Source of the DNA: Synechococcus sp. CBW1004
GTDB lineage: Bacteria > Cyanobacteriota > Cyanobacteriia > PCC-6307 > Cyanobiaceae
NCBI RefSeq assembly: GCF_015840715.1
Contig: NZ_CP060397.1
Location: 2,500,686 to 2,564,685 of the forward strand
Direction: 5' to 3'
Length of the DNA: 64,000 bases
Positions 1,564 through 42,956 of the stretch are shown here, piece after piece. Under the pieces are notes generated by a model that saw nothing but the letters and a program-made list of their open reading frames with translations, did no database searches and had not been told where the DNA came from. Made by a program: the position numbers and the translations under genes. Position 1 is the stretch's first letter. Each line of letters opens with the position of its first letter.

Positions 1564-1607
1564 AAAAAATTGGGGACGGCTGACCAGGACTGGTCAGCCG
1601 TCCCCAA
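1564..1607 (-). terminator. Rho-independent terminator downstream of ftsY
   Basis: A perfect inverted repeat with 17-bp arms (1570-1586 and 1591-1607) and a 4-nt loop. On the minus strand the hairpin is followed immediately by a run of six T (1569-1564). It lies 20 nt past the ftsY stop codon, so it should end the DUF502-nusB-ftsY transcript. Confidence 0.93.
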
Positions 1608-3558: not shown

Positions 3559-4194
3559 CTACACCTGCGCGGTGGTGAAGCGTCGCAGAACCCCGTTGAT
3601 CATGCGGCGGCCCTGCTCATCGCTCCAGCGGTTGGCCAGTTCGACCGCCTCATTGCAGGCCACAGCGGGCGGCGTGTCGAAGTGCTCCAGATCAACCACC
3701 GCCAGGCGGAGAATGTCGCGATCAATGCGCGGCAGGCGGGTGAGGCGCCAACCCTCCATCACCCGATCCAGTCGCGTGTCGATCGAATCACGATCGCGCA
3801 GCACAGCCCGGGCCCGCTCGATGGCACCGCGATGCACCTCCGACTGATCGGCGAGCAGCAGCAGACGCGGCAGCTCCAGGCTGGCTGAGAGGCGGTTGAG
3901 CACCTGCTCGGCATGACCGAGGCCGTCCTGCAGGTGCTGCCGCACCCTCGGAAGACGGGCTTCGCCGTCCTGCTGCAGTTCGCTGTCCAGCAGATCCTGC
4001 TGGGCCTGCTGCAGCTCCGCGGCGGAGCGGTCGAGCACTTCGCGCAGGTGCTGGCCGAGGCTGGTCAGCGCCTGACGGAGCAGGGTCTCGAGGCTGGTCT
4101 CTGCCAGCCGGGCGTCGGCTCCGGAGCCGTCCCGGTCGTTGACCTGACCGAGCATCAGCAGGGCCAGTTCACGGGCGAGGGTTTGGCTTTGCAT
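3559..4194 (-). CDS. nusB: Transcription antitermination protein NusB
   Basis: NusB-family RNA-binding protein that, with NusE (S10), acts on boxA sequences to promote processive rRNA transcription. The 211-residue protein begins MQSQTLARELALLMLGQ and ends in the characteristic helical C-terminus with NEAVELANRWS and a final NGVLRRF motif. Cyanobacterial NusB is longer than the ~140-residue E. coli protein because of a central helical insertion, visible here at about residues 40-110. Its ATG shares one base with the stop codon of the upstream DUF502 gene (TGATG), indicating translational coupling. ftsY follows 6 nt downstream. This arrangement is what I recall for picocyanobacteria. Confidence 0.94.
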   Translation of the reverse strand: MQSQTLARELALLMLGQVNDRDGSGADARLAETSLETLLRQALTSLGQHLREVLDRSAAELQQAQQDLLDSELQQDGEARLPRVRQHLQDGLGHAEQVLNRLSASLELPRLLLLADQSEVHRGAIERARAVLRDRDSIDTRLDRVMEGWRLTRLPRIDRDILRLAVVDLEHFDTPPAVACNEAVELANRWSDEQGRRMINGVLRRFTTAQV

Positions 4195-4925: not shown

Positions 4926-5012
4926 GGCGGGACGAGGTGTGCGGACGGCCGGTCAACGCAAGCTAACCATGCGCCGGACCCGCAGCCGTGGGGACGACCG
5001 ACCCGGGCGTCT

Positions 5013-5663
5013 TCAGAGGACGCAGCCGAGGCAGAGGATCGTGAAGGCAATGATCAGGACCACCGCACCACCGGAGTTGGCGAAGCGGCGCTGTCCGAGG
5101 GCGATCCTGGAGGTCTGCTCCGCCTGCTTGACCTGGGACTCGAGCTGATCGAGCTGACGGTCCACGAAGCTGCGGGCCGACTGGAGCTTCTGGTCCTCGG
5201 TCGCTCCGGGAGGGATCTGGCCGGTTGCCTCAGCCTGCTTGATCAGCTGCTGGAGCAGGGCCGGATCCTTGCTCTGCTGACGCGCCATCTCCAGCTGCCC
5301 CCTCTTGGCGGCCAGCTGCTGGTCGCTCTGCTGCTGCATGATCTGATCGCCGCCGAATGACACCGGCAGCGAGGCGGTGAGCAGCACGGCCAGCAGACCG
5401 CTGATGATGCACACGGTCCAGAGCAGTGGCGTGCGCGACTCAGTGCCGTTCTCCAGGCGGGAAGACAGATACATCAGCAGAAGCCCCATCAGCGCCATCG
5501 GCGACTGGGTGATCAGACGCTCCACCACCAGCTGGCGGAAGGGCTCCTCGTTCCAGTCCCAGATGGTGAGCACTGCCAGCATCTGGAACAGCAGCAGCAC
5601 CACCAGGGTGATCCCCATCCAGCGCAGCAGTGGGCTGAAACGGGAGGCAGAGGCGGCGGCCAC
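5013..5663 (-). CDS. HpsJ-family membrane protein
   Basis: Membrane protein resembling the cyanobacterial HpsJ family (named from hormogonium polysaccharide clusters; molecular function not established). The start is taken as GTG at 5663 (MAAASASRFS), giving 216 residues; the same frame stays open further upstream, but there it only shadows queG on the opposite strand. Hydrophobic segments lie at about residues 13-32, 50-65, 78-100 and at the extreme C-terminus. A Gln/Lys-rich, probably coiled-coil stretch runs from about residue 105 to 185. It is divergent from queG, with about 60 nt between starts. Start choice is uncertain because no clear ribosome binding site precedes the GTG. Confidence 0.72.
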   Translation of the reverse strand: MAAASASRFSPLLRWMGITLVVLLLFQMLAVLTIWDWNEEPFRQLVVERLITQSPMALMGLLLMYLSSRLENGTESRTPLLWTVCIISGLLAVLLTASLPVSFGGDQIMQQQSDQQLAAKRGQLEMARQQSKDPALLQQLIKQAEATGQIPPGATEDQKLQSARSFVDRQLDQLESQVKQAEQTSRIALGQRRFANSGGAVVLIIAFTILCLGCVL

Positions 5664-39301: not shown

Positions 39302-41398
39302 ATGACCCAGGCCTACCAGCCCCTTCACCACAAGTACCGGCCGCAGCGCTTCGACCAGCTGGTGGGCCAGGAGGCGATCGCCGCCACCCTCAGCCAGGCG
39401 TTGCGCAGCGGGCGGATCGCGCCGGCCTACCTGTTCAGCGGCCCTCGGGGCACCGGCAAAACCTCGAGCGCCCGCATCCTGGCGCGTTCGCTCAACTGCA
39501 TCGCGAGCGCCGGCCCCACTCCCGAGCCCTGTGGTGTCTGCGCCCTGTGTGAGGCGATCGCCTCCGGCACCGCCCTCGATGTGATCGAGATCGATGCCGC
39601 CTCCAACACCGGTGTCGACAACATCCGCGACCTGATCGAGCGATCGCGCTTCGCGCCGGTTCAGGCCCGCTGGAAGGTGTACGTGGTCGACGAGTGCCAC
39701 ATGCTCTCGACCGCCGCCTTCAACGCCTTGCTCAAGACCCTCGAGGAGCCGCCTCCGCAGGTGGTCTTCGTGCTGGCGACCACCGATCCGCAACGGGTGT
39801 TGCCCACGATTCTGAGCCGTTGCCAGCGCTTCGATTTCCGGCGTATTCCTCTGGAGGCCCTGCAGAGCCATCTGGCCTGGATCGCAGAGCAGGAGGCGAT
39901 CGGCATCACGCCCGAGGCTCTGCATGTGGTGGCCCAGCGGGCTCAGGGCGGCCTGCGTGACGCCGAGAGTCTGCTCGATCAGCTCAGCCTCCTGCCGGCC
40001 CCGATCGAACCCACGGCTGTCTGGGAGCTGCTCGGTGCCGTGCCCGAAGAGGAGCTGCTCGAGCTGGCCGCCGCCATGGCCGAGGCCGAGCCGCTGCCCG
40101 TGGTGGAGGCGATCCGTCTGCTGCTCGACCGGGGCCGCGAACCCTCGGCGGTGCTCCAGGGCCTGGCGGGGATGCTGCGCGATCTGCTGCTCGCCGGTGT
40201 GGCCCCCGAACGGCTGGAGCTCACCAGCGTCTCTCCGTCGTTGCGGCCGCGTCTCAACCCGCTGGCCCGCCGCATCGGCAAGGCGCGGCTGCTGCACTGG
40301 CAGGCTCAGCTCAAGGGAAGTGAGCAGCAGCTGCGCCTGAGCGTGCAGCCACGCCTTTGGCTGGAGGTGCTGCTGCTCGGCCTGCTCGCCGAGCCGGTGG
40401 CTCCCGCAGTGGCGGTCCCCTCCCAGGCCCCGGTCGGGTCGCGAACGGCCACCGTTGCCGCTGTGGCGCCTGCCGCGGCGGCCTCAGACACCGCAGTCGC
40501 CCTCGCCGGGCCTTCTCCCGTCATGCCGAACGAGGTCGTTCAGCCACCGATGTCCCCGGCTGTCGTCAGCCCGTCACCGCCCCCGGTGAACGCTCCGGCG
40601 GCCGCTCCTCCCGGCGAGCCCGCCAGTGCGTCCGAGACGCCGTTGCCCGAGCTCTGGCAGCAGATCCTGGCCGGTCTGGAGCTTCCTTCCACCCGCATGC
40701 TGCTTTCCCAGCAGGCCCAGCTGGTGCGGCTCGACGGTCAGCGGGCCGTGGTGCGGGTGGCCGGCACCTGGATGGCGATGGTGCAGAGCCGCCTGTCGCT
40801 GCTGGAGACGGCCTTCAGCCGCGCCCTCGGCAGCCCGCGGCAGCTGGTGCTTGAGAGTGGTGATCCCGGGAGCGGCGCCGCTGCTGCACCCGTGGCCGCG
40901 CGACCGGCACCACCGTCGGCACCGGCACCGCCCGCAGGCGCTGTCCAGGCCGCGAACACGCCTGCTCCTGCCTCGGCCCCGGATCAATCCGCCGCGCCAT
41001 CCGTCGTCCCGACGAAGCCTGCCGGCGCGCAGGGCGCGATGGCCTCAGAGGCAGCGCCGCCGCTTGCTGCCTCGGCGTCTCGACCCCACCCCTCCCCGGC
41101 GCGTGCTGTCGAGCAGGCTTCCGGATCAGACCCTCAGCCCCCGACCCTGACGGCGTCGGCGCTTCCGAGCGCGCCGTCAGGGTCGGGGGCTGAGGCTCCC
41201 CCCGCCTCGGCTGCAGCGTCCGCCCTGTCCGCTTCGGCGCCCCCACCGCGCTTGGGCACATCCGTGGAGGAGAAGGCACGACAGCTGGCTGATTTCTTCA
41301 ATGGCGAGGTGGTGCTTCTCCCCGAGGATCCCGAGGCAGCTCCCGCCTCCGCCGATTCGCTCCCTCCCGCTCAGCTCCCGGCTCACGACGTCGCCTGA
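39302..41398 (+). CDS. dnaX: DNA polymerase III tau/gamma subunit
   Basis: Clamp-loader ATPase that opens and places the DnaN clamp. ATG at 39302 gives 698 residues. Walker A GPRGTGKT at residues 47-54, zinc-site cysteines Cys66, Cys77, Cys80, Cys83, Walker B YVVDECHMLS and sensor region LATTDPQRVLPTILSRCQRF are intact. Residues ~385-460 and 540-660 are Ala/Pro-rich linkers surrounding a conserved C-terminal domain (LWQQILAGLELPSTRMLLSQ). No intein, unlike some cyanobacterial dnaX genes, and no A-rich slippery heptamer for gamma production was noticed. The linker-coding part carries a perfect 24-bp inverted repeat (41132-41195). Confidence 0.96.
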   Translation: MTQAYQPLHHKYRPQRFDQLVGQEAIAATLSQALRSGRIAPAYLFSGPRGTGKTSSARILARSLNCIASAGPTPEPCGVCALCEAIASGTALDVIEIDAASNTGVDNIRDLIERSRFAPVQARWKVYVVDECHMLSTAAFNALLKTLEEPPPQVVFVLATTDPQRVLPTILSRCQRFDFRRIPLEALQSHLAWIAEQEAIGITPEALHVVAQRAQGGLRDAESLLDQLSLLPAPIEPTAVWELLGAVPEEELLELAAAMAEAEPLPVVEAIRLLLDRGREPSAVLQGLAGMLRDLLLAGVAPERLELTSVSPSLRPRLNPLARRIGKARLLHWQAQLKGSEQQLRLSVQPRLWLEVLLLGLLAEPVAPAVAVPSQAPVGSRTATVAAVAPAAAASDTAVALAGPSPVMPNEVVQPPMSPAVVSPSPPPVNAPAAAPPGEPASASETPLPELWQQILAGLELPSTRMLLSQQAQLVRLDGQRAVVRVAGTWMAMVQSRLSLLETAFSRALGSPRQLVLESGDPGSGAAAAPVAARPAPPSAPAPPAGAVQAANTPAPASAPDQSAAPSVVPTKPAGAQGAMASEAAPPLAASASRPHPSPARAVEQASGSDPQPPTLTASALPSAPSGSGAEAPPASAAASALSASAPPPRLGTSVEEKARQLADFFNGEVVLLPEDPEAAPASADSLPPAQLPAHDVA
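41132..41195. repeat. Perfect 24-bp inverted repeat inside dnaX
   Basis: Arms 41132-41155 and 41172-41195 are exact reverse complements, separated by 16 nt. The repeat lies in-frame within the Ala/Pro-rich C-terminal linker of DnaX, coding for ...PQPPTLTA... in one arm and ...APSGSGAEA in the other. No T-tract follows, so it is not a typical terminator. No second copy was noticed in the window. Confidence 0.93.
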
Positions 41399-41537
41399 AC
41401 GCCGCCGGTTCCGGCTGACAGCCAGTCTCAGACCAACGTCAGGCGCTGGTTGAGGCGGCGCGTCTCACAGGAGAGTGGCCCATCAGCCTCGTGCCTGCCC
41501 CTCCGGAGGCGGTGCGTCGCTTTCCCCCGGACCGTGT

Positions 41538-42956
41538 TCAGAGCGCCCCCCCCTCCGTGGCCAGCTCGGGGTCCGCCTCAACGGTCTGCGGCTCCTCCTC
41601 GGCGCCGTGGTGGAGAGTCTTGACCCACACGAGCCGCTTGGGCAGCAGCGCCATGCGCAGGGTCACCCAGGGAATCACCGCGAACCAGTGGACCAGGTAC
41701 AACACCCCAAGAGTGACCGAAGCCACCGACATGCGCGGCAGCGGCGGCCCCTCGCTCGGACGGCGGCAGCCGCTCACGATGGCGATGCCCGAGAGGCCCA
41801 GGGCCACGATCGAGAAGGGCCACATCGCCGGGGGGGTGCCGGTGGCGATGACGCCGGCCAGATCGGCCGCGGCCATCACCGGCATCATGTACTGGAGCAC
41901 GAAGAAGCTGAACAGGTCGGTCTTCTGGGAGCCGCTCAGCCGGTCCGACAGCAGACCGGGCGCGTAGTCGAGAAAGCGCTGCAGACCGCCTTCGGCCCAG
42001 CGCTGTCGCTGGCGCCACAGGGCCGGCAGCGTGAGCACCGCCTCCTCCTGCACGGGTGGATCCCAGAGCACGCCGATCGGTTGCCGCTCCAGCAGCAGGC
42101 GCATGCTCAGGTCGAGATCGTCGGTGACGGTGGCTTCGTTGAAGCCCCCGCAGGTCAGCACCGCGTCGCGTCGCAGCAGCTGGCCGTTACCGCGCAGCTC
42201 CGCGACACCACCGGCGCACAGCCGCCCCTGCTGAATCACCGCGTCGAAGGCCATCTCCATCGACTGGGCGCGGGTGAGCAGGTTGGTGTCGGGATTGGCG
42301 ACGGCCTTGCGCAGTTGCACGGCGGACCAGCCGCCGGCCTCGGCCCAGGGGATCAGCCGCTCGAGCACGTCCTCCTGGAGGTCGGCATCGGCATCGAGCA
42401 CCAGCAGCCAGCGGCCCTGCAGCTGGGGCAGCACCAGATTGAGCGCTCCGGACTTGCCACCGCCGGCCTCTCTTGAGCGGCGCAGCACCCGCAGTGCGGG
42501 TTCGCGGCCCTGCAGCTCCTCGAGCAGCTCGGGCGTGCGGTCCTCGCTGCCGTCATCGATCACCCACAGCAGAAGCCGGCCGGCCGGATAGCGGAGGTTG
42601 GCGATCCGCTCCACCAGCCGGCGGATGACGGCCTGTTCATCGCGGGCGGCGACCACGACATCGACAGCTGGAAGATCGCTCGGGAGGTCTGCCTCCGTTG
42701 CGACTCCGGAGTCGTCCGTTGCCTCGGGCGGAGCGGCGATCGTGGGGGGATCGAGCAGCACCGTGCGGATGCTGTAGCCCCCCAGAAGCACGGCCAGCAC
42801 GATCGAGGGGACCAGGCTGCGACCCGGCTCCAGCCAGTGGGGTGCCAGGCCTGCGGCGCAGCAGCCGAGCAGGAACAGGGACGCCTTGAGGCGACGGTGA
42901 CCGCCGGTCACGGGACGCTGGTCGTCAGGCTGCTCCGTGGCCCTGCCTTCGACCAT
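41538..42956 (-). CDS. Membrane GT2 glycosyltransferase, candidate monoglucosyldiacylglycerol synthase
   Basis: Processive-type family-2 glycosyltransferase in the membrane. The 472-residue protein has an N-terminal hydrophobic pair (~25-60), a cytosolic GT-A domain with VVVAARDEQ, VIDDGSEDRT, the DXD-type VLDADADLQ, VTDDLDLSMR and the QRQRWAEGG motif, then several C-terminal membrane segments from about residue 340. Size and layout match cyanobacterial MgdA (sll1377 type), which makes monoglucosyldiacylglycerol, precursor of galactolipids; a cellulose-synthase-like polysaccharide enzyme is an alternative. It follows the SpoIID-like gene by 24 nt on the same strand and converges on dnaX. Specific assignment is inference from memory of the family. 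Confidence 0.8.
   Translation of the reverse strand: MVEGRATEQPDDQRPVTGGHRRLKASLFLLGCCAAGLAPHWLEPGRSLVPSIVLAVLLGGYSIRTVLLDPPTIAAPPEATDDSGVATEADLPSDLPAVDVVVAARDEQAVIRRLVERIANLRYPAGRLLLWVIDDGSEDRTPELLEELQGREPALRVLRRSREAGGGKSGALNLVLPQLQGRWLLVLDADADLQEDVLERLIPWAEAGGWSAVQLRKAVANPDTNLLTRAQSMEMAFDAVIQQGRLCAGGVAELRGNGQLLRRDAVLTCGGFNEATVTDDLDLSMRLLLERQPIGVLWDPPVQEEAVLTLPALWRQRQRWAEGGLQRFLDYAPGLLSDRLSGSQKTDLFSFFVLQYMMPVMAAADLAGVIATGTPPAMWPFSIVALGLSGIAIVSGCRRPSEGPPLPRMSVASVTLGVLYLVHWFAVIPWVTLRMALLPKRLVWVKTLHHGAEEEPQTVEADPELATEGGAL

Follow-up and report, generated by a model that had tools for sequence, protein, structure and literature searches.

Why should a core replication gene carry a long and perfect palindrome within its coding sequence? 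The question is raised by dnaX of Synechococcus sp. CBW1004, encoding DNA polymerase III subunit gamma/tau and located at 39302..41398 on the + strand of the 64,000-nucleotide stretch of contig NZ_CP060397.1 analysed here, which we refer to as the window. The ORF starts with an ATG at 39302, its stop codon ends at 41398, and the 698-aa product matches the NCBIfam equivalog PRK14948 with 829.8 bits (cut-off 593). The repeat, on the same strand, consists of a left arm (41132..41155, 24 nt), a spacer (41156..41171, 16 nt) and a right arm (41172..41195, 24 nt), the latter being the exact reverse complement of the former. The first nucleotide of the left arm, 41132, also starts a codon of dnaX, and the repeat covers DnaX residues 611-632 of 698; the original description of 24-bp perfect arms separated by a 16-nt loop, in frame within dnaX, was accurate. 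In the predicted RNA the spacer can fold upon itself (GCGCU-UCCG-AGCGC, with the final C contributed by the right arm).

The repeat is the longest perfect inverted repeat in the window (loops of up to 60 nt), followed by one of 18 bp at 1570-1607. It had been claimed that such a length is not expected by chance, and this was confirmed by an expectation computed from base composition (arms of at least 24, loops of 0-100, 64 kb), which amounts to approximately 3e-7 repeats per 64 kb with the composition of the window and 3e-6 with that of the linker. When codons were shuffled in 30 sets of 75 dnaX ORFs each, the longest perfect arm obtained was 17 bp. The predicted RNA fold of region 41110-41215 reaches -75.3 kcal/mol (z = -6.0, 200 shuffles), and the same region folded as DNA gives z = -6.5.

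Profile analysis of DnaX identified the ATPase and lid domains and domain III, which extends to residue 363. Residues 444-512 form a DnaA_N-like segment, with a score (25 bits) just under the Pfam cut-off of 27. The repeat is located in the second Ala/Pro/Ser-rich linker (+ strand, 40865..41263, residues ~522-654; approximate boundaries), between the DnaA_N-like segment and the conserved C-terminal motif ADFFNGEV. This linker, presumably disordered, could not be convincingly aligned among relatives, including the closest ones tried, and its length ranges from 44 to 189 codons across 79 distinct relatives' tails. This very variable length and sequence bears out the view that the linker is permissive; it appears to be fast-evolving and tolerant of length change. 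A short C-terminal stretch, LADFFNGEVV, is kept after the hard-to-align linker. The codons of the C-terminal stretch EEKARQLADFFNGEVV (41267..41314, + strand), which has an FF motif conserved in relatives, lie 3' of the repeat. The DnaX of the window has the C-terminal motif (ADFFNGEV and similar), as do 77 of 79 ORFs from relatives, a set that includes a few genes fetched twice.

How unusual such a repeat is was assessed among the dnaX genes of relatives. DnaX was sought in 99 genomes, including that of CBW1004, and all 99 yielded some match at E <= 0.001. Several matches were weak and probably represent other clamp-loader proteins or fragments; three same-genus genomes (G001, G010 and G038) gave weak or partial dnaX matches alone. 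In addition, the best 80 of 273 named loci were fetched. From 110 loci (L013-L122) we kept 75 distinct dnaX ORFs longer than 1500 nt, the one in the window included, while short, truncated or duplicate ORFs and loci without the chosen start motif were dropped. Whole loci, 122 in total, were also scanned for perfect arms of at least 13 bp with loops of up to 60 nt.

Perfect arms of at least 12 bp were found in six of the 75 ORFs, with lengths of 24 (window), 22 (L060), 14 (L102), 13 (L087) and 12 bp (L042 and L045). As codon-shuffled controls gave counts near those observed for the shorter arms (means per set of 2.0 for 12 bp, 0.4 for 13 bp and 0.4 for 14 bp), just the window and L060 stand out, and these are the only two ORFs with arms exceeding 14 bp. 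The comparison of DnaX linkers in relatives, suggested with the original prediction, showed that the repeat is absent from the other 74 distinct dnaX ORFs, none of which has a stem at this linker. For this reason no covariation is possible in this set, and the repeat does not qualify as a conserved structured RNA. In a separate locus (L035), perfect 17-bp arms with a 17-nt loop (5011-5061) were observed about 100 nt past the dnaX ORF, with no T-run after the stem.

The search was extended to 1.66 Mb of DNA, comprising 864 kb of the CBW1004 genome (the window plus 40 stretches, overlap below 3 kb), with a further 800 kb from four relatives (G022, G013, G008 and G049). Genes were called roughly, from codon usage, which assigned 71-85% as coding. 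Six perfect repeats with arms of at least 17 bp and loops of up to 100 nt were found, and the dnaX repeat is the sole one inside a called gene. The five others, all outside called genes, have arms of 18 bp (window 1570-1607), 21 bp (L126), 19 bp (L141), 17 bp (L158) and 17 bp (L201). Called genes of the relatives contained two 15-bp repeats (L174 and L187). As the 1.66 Mb sampled yielded no second repeat of this size (arms of at least 17 bp) in coding sequence, such events are rare or rarely kept. The repeats of L141 (3075-3133) and L126 (17934-17984) belong to the same genome, and neither stem is followed by a T-run on either strand. The former begins 6 nt past the end of an ORF that, from its translation, we take to be glmS; the name glycosyltransferase, used for a neighbour gene, is likewise a reading of the translation.

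One explanation offered for the palindrome was a mobile palindromic element (RPE-, REP- or MITE-like) that landed in the permissive linker. Rickettsia palindromic elements are in-frame palindromes inside permissive coding regions, and the dnaX repeat resembles them in being an in-frame palindrome within a linker tolerant of length change. However, the original proposal to search for the arm in the whole genome and in same-genus relatives revealed no further copies, which weakens this explanation. In the 3.67-Mb CBW1004 genome the sole significant match of the 64-bp repeat sequence is itself (the next best is 19 nt long, E 0.109), and the arm with up to 3 mismatches occurs there (G000) just as the two arms of the dnaX repeat. 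It is absent, at the same stringency, from 40 of the 41 other genomes of the genus, whose completeness ranges from 64 to 100%. The remaining one, G016, has a single unpaired 3-mismatch site on a different contig from its dnaX, which we regard as chance level because a reversed control pattern also matches once (in G001) among the 42 same-genus genomes, G000 included.

Moreover, an exact search found no exact arm in viral contigs, blastn gave no match in plasmids, and no abutting direct repeat of at least 2 nt, i.e. a target duplication, is present at the outer ends of the arms. A mobile element implies multiple dispersed copies and was rejected on copy number: in contrast to the Rickettsia elements, the dnaX repeat is single-copy and hence defines no element family. 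We therefore consider a mobile origin hardly credible.

It was also proposed that the palindrome acts in mRNA, shaping the amount or length of DnaX. A functional hairpin might slow ribosomes or RNA polymerase late in dnaX, leading to less DnaX or to a shorter form without the C-terminal motif. The very stable predicted stem (with the RNA z-score given above), its perfect pairing, and the stop codons of the +1 frame (41148, within the left arm) and the +2 frame (41191, within the right arm) would fit such a role. However, parts needed for two DnaX products are missing. Nowhere in the dnaX ORF does the -1 register contain a slippery heptamer (X XXY YYZ). The sole homopolymer of 6 nt or longer is C6 at 41198, just past the repeat; there is no A/T run, and the repeat is placed late in the gene. 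The reading frame stays open past the repeat, which counts against a functional hairpin, and the C-terminal motif is retained here as in nearly all relatives' ORFs. The lack of any such stem at this linker in the other 74 ORFs also speaks against this role, as does Rfam, in which region 40800-41540 gave five sub-threshold matches, four of them to miRNA-precursor models, the best of which scored 24.9 bits where the gathering score is 200. A known RNA family was rejected on this basis.

As far as the E. coli dnaX frameshift cassette is outlined in PMC5009743, the CBW1004 gene resembles it in having a stem-loop inside dnaX, but differs in lacking the slippery heptamer; a -1 frameshift signal was rejected, the heptamer being absent 5' of the stem. 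Transcriptional slippage of the Thermus type, which according to the same account involves long A or T runs (9 long), was rejected as well, there being no long A/T run in the dnaX of the window. A/T-type X XXY YYZ heptamers in the -1 register do occur in 11 of 79 relatives' ORFs, at differing positions, and seven of these 11 have TTTTTTC or TTTTTTT near the gene end.

On balance, a functional mRNA hairpin seems improbable, although not to the degree of a mobile element. In our view the hairpin is unlikely to alter how much DnaX is made or how long the protein is; the stem may have a mild effect on translation or mRNA stability, and the repeat is probably without any special job.

Two further readings were considered. 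The first is an intrinsic terminator, serving either dnaX or the convergent gene at 41538-42956, as could be expected from a strong GC stem near a gene end with a convergent ORF downstream. However, no T-run is present on either strand, as the stem is followed by CTCCCCCC and GTCTGATC, and the stem ends 200 nt ahead of the dnaX stop codon, before conserved codons. A terminator scan of 40900-41700 found none, but with a loop limit of 8 nt it is a weak test of this stem. A stem-then-T6 arrangement occurs elsewhere in the window, at 1570-1607. The terminator was rejected as a GC stem without a T-run, and we give it next to no weight. The stem at 1570-1607 (perfect, 18 bp, 2-nt loop) is located just downstream of the minus-strand ORF 3552-1627, which, from its translation, we assume to be ftsY. 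With TTTTTT next on that strand, it looks like an intrinsic terminator.

The second reading is that the repeat was introduced by sequencing or assembly, which are known to produce inverted chimeras. Nevertheless, the genome is a single contig with 99.98% completeness and the dnaX reading frame is intact across the repeat, which counts against an assembly artefact; we find this reading very unlikely.

We suggest that the palindrome was, in good likelihood, left behind by a single inverted duplication that took place locally within dnaX. According to this model, the simplest one, during DNA copying the growing strand would have switched template by folding back on itself or onto the sister strand and pairing with complementary sequence nearby, copied about 24 nt as the reverse complement, and then switched back. 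The self-pairing of the spacer (GCGCU/AGCGC around UCCG) could have primed the fold-back. By luck the product would have been in frame, and within the A/P/S-rich linker it would have been tolerated. What is seen in the window is a perfect reverse-complement copy close to its source (24 bp, 16-nt spacer), and its single-copy state in the genome is in favour of this model. The repeat is missing from the relatives' dnaX ORFs that were compared, yet the source arm cannot be aligned in the linker. What counts against an inverted duplication is that no close strain with the pre-event sequence is among those compared, so that the event is not reconstructable at this place.

Strand composition gives a hint as to the direction of copying. 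The left arm is C-rich, which is usual for the second DnaX linker, whereas the G-rich right arm is unusual for it. The G-over-C excess of the right arm (+7) is reached by 39 of 6415 24-nt linker windows (0.6%) in the tails of the 79 distinct relatives, and none of the 312 windows in its own linker attains it, while nothing sets the left arm apart. The right arm is therefore the likelier copy, and the left arm probably the original sequence, a conclusion drawn from strand composition alone. Codon usage was rejected as a guide, as it gives no clear answer: mean log2 scores were -5.40 (left arm) and -5.10 (right arm) under the own-linker model, and -4.93 and -5.33, respectively, under the relatives' model, where both are mid-range. 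We infer the template switch itself, the left arm as its source, and little or no selection on the hairpin.

The inverted duplication is more clearly seen in L060, the dnaX of an uncultured Synechococcus MAG, called marine according to our reading of the sample name. It has 22-bp perfect arms and a 14-nt loop (4054-4111). The left arm corresponds to the conserved codons WLEVLLLG at the end of domain III, and the right arm, its reverse complement, lies where the first linker begins and encodes PAAAPPA. Among the compared genes (67 sequences with both motifs, including the window and its second copy, L093), the nearest to L060 is L064 (86.6% in the conserved part), whose sequence differs at the place of the right arm. 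As one arm holds conserved codons and L064 differs at the other, source and copy can be distinguished in L060. Another gene, L074, has GAACCAGCA at the place of the L060 right arm; being short, this sequence might serve as a primer for a fold-back of this type.

The DnaX proteins of the window and L060 share 82% identity over the conserved part. Since the repeat of the window lies in the other linker and the sequences of the two repeats are unrelated, they most likely arose independently, so that L060 would support inverted duplication as an independent example. It should be noted that L060 is a metagenome assembly, in which chimeric inverted copies can be artefacts.

Arms of at least 22 bp were thus found in 2 of 75 distinct dnaX ORFs, one of which is the starting find, and in the sampled DNA in no gene but dnaX. 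The claim that dnaX is a hotspot was rejected, as the 74 other ORFs provide too few unselected cases (one). It could be speculated that in picocyanobacteria the long dnaX linkers expand time and again through inverted duplication of codons close by, the reverse-complement reading supplying Ala/Pro-rich linker, and that hairpins formed in this way may temporarily tune the amount of full-length DnaX; we consider this quite unlikely. The locus illustrates cleanly how one error in local DNA copying could give a core replication gene a long perfect hairpin with the frame unbroken, and in L060 the same can be seen with a source that is identifiable. Should events of this type be recurrent in linkers, they would be one route by which low-complexity linkers gain sequence; otherwise, the repeat is a curiosity.

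We regard the repeat as a true and rare inverted duplication, which none of the other genomes searched was found to share, and as a fresh instance of a known mutational footprint. As far as they are presented in PMC6649704, mitochondrial genes of Nematomorpha likewise contain perfect inverted repeats in protein-coding sequences, but their palindromes are numerous and up to 284 bp long, whereas dnaX has one repeat with 24-bp arms. Within the scope of the yeast cases we drew on (Abraham and Hazkani-Covo 2021, PMC8604942), template switching takes place between short repeats already present in protein-coding genes, and it homogenises their arms or inverts their spacers. In both systems coding DNA seems to be altered by template switching without an adaptive reason; in contrast to yeast, the whole arm in dnaX seems to be newly made. 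The closest parallel is provided by the template-switch hairpins of Monttinen and Loytynoja (2022, PMC8794818), who, in the part of their work considered here, describe template switching as able to make perfect stems in one event. Although our repeat, unlike those cases, is located in a bacterial protein-coding linker and has no pre-event relative for reconstruction, it shares with them a reverse-complement copy placed beside its source, in the form of a perfect stem that could have been made at once.
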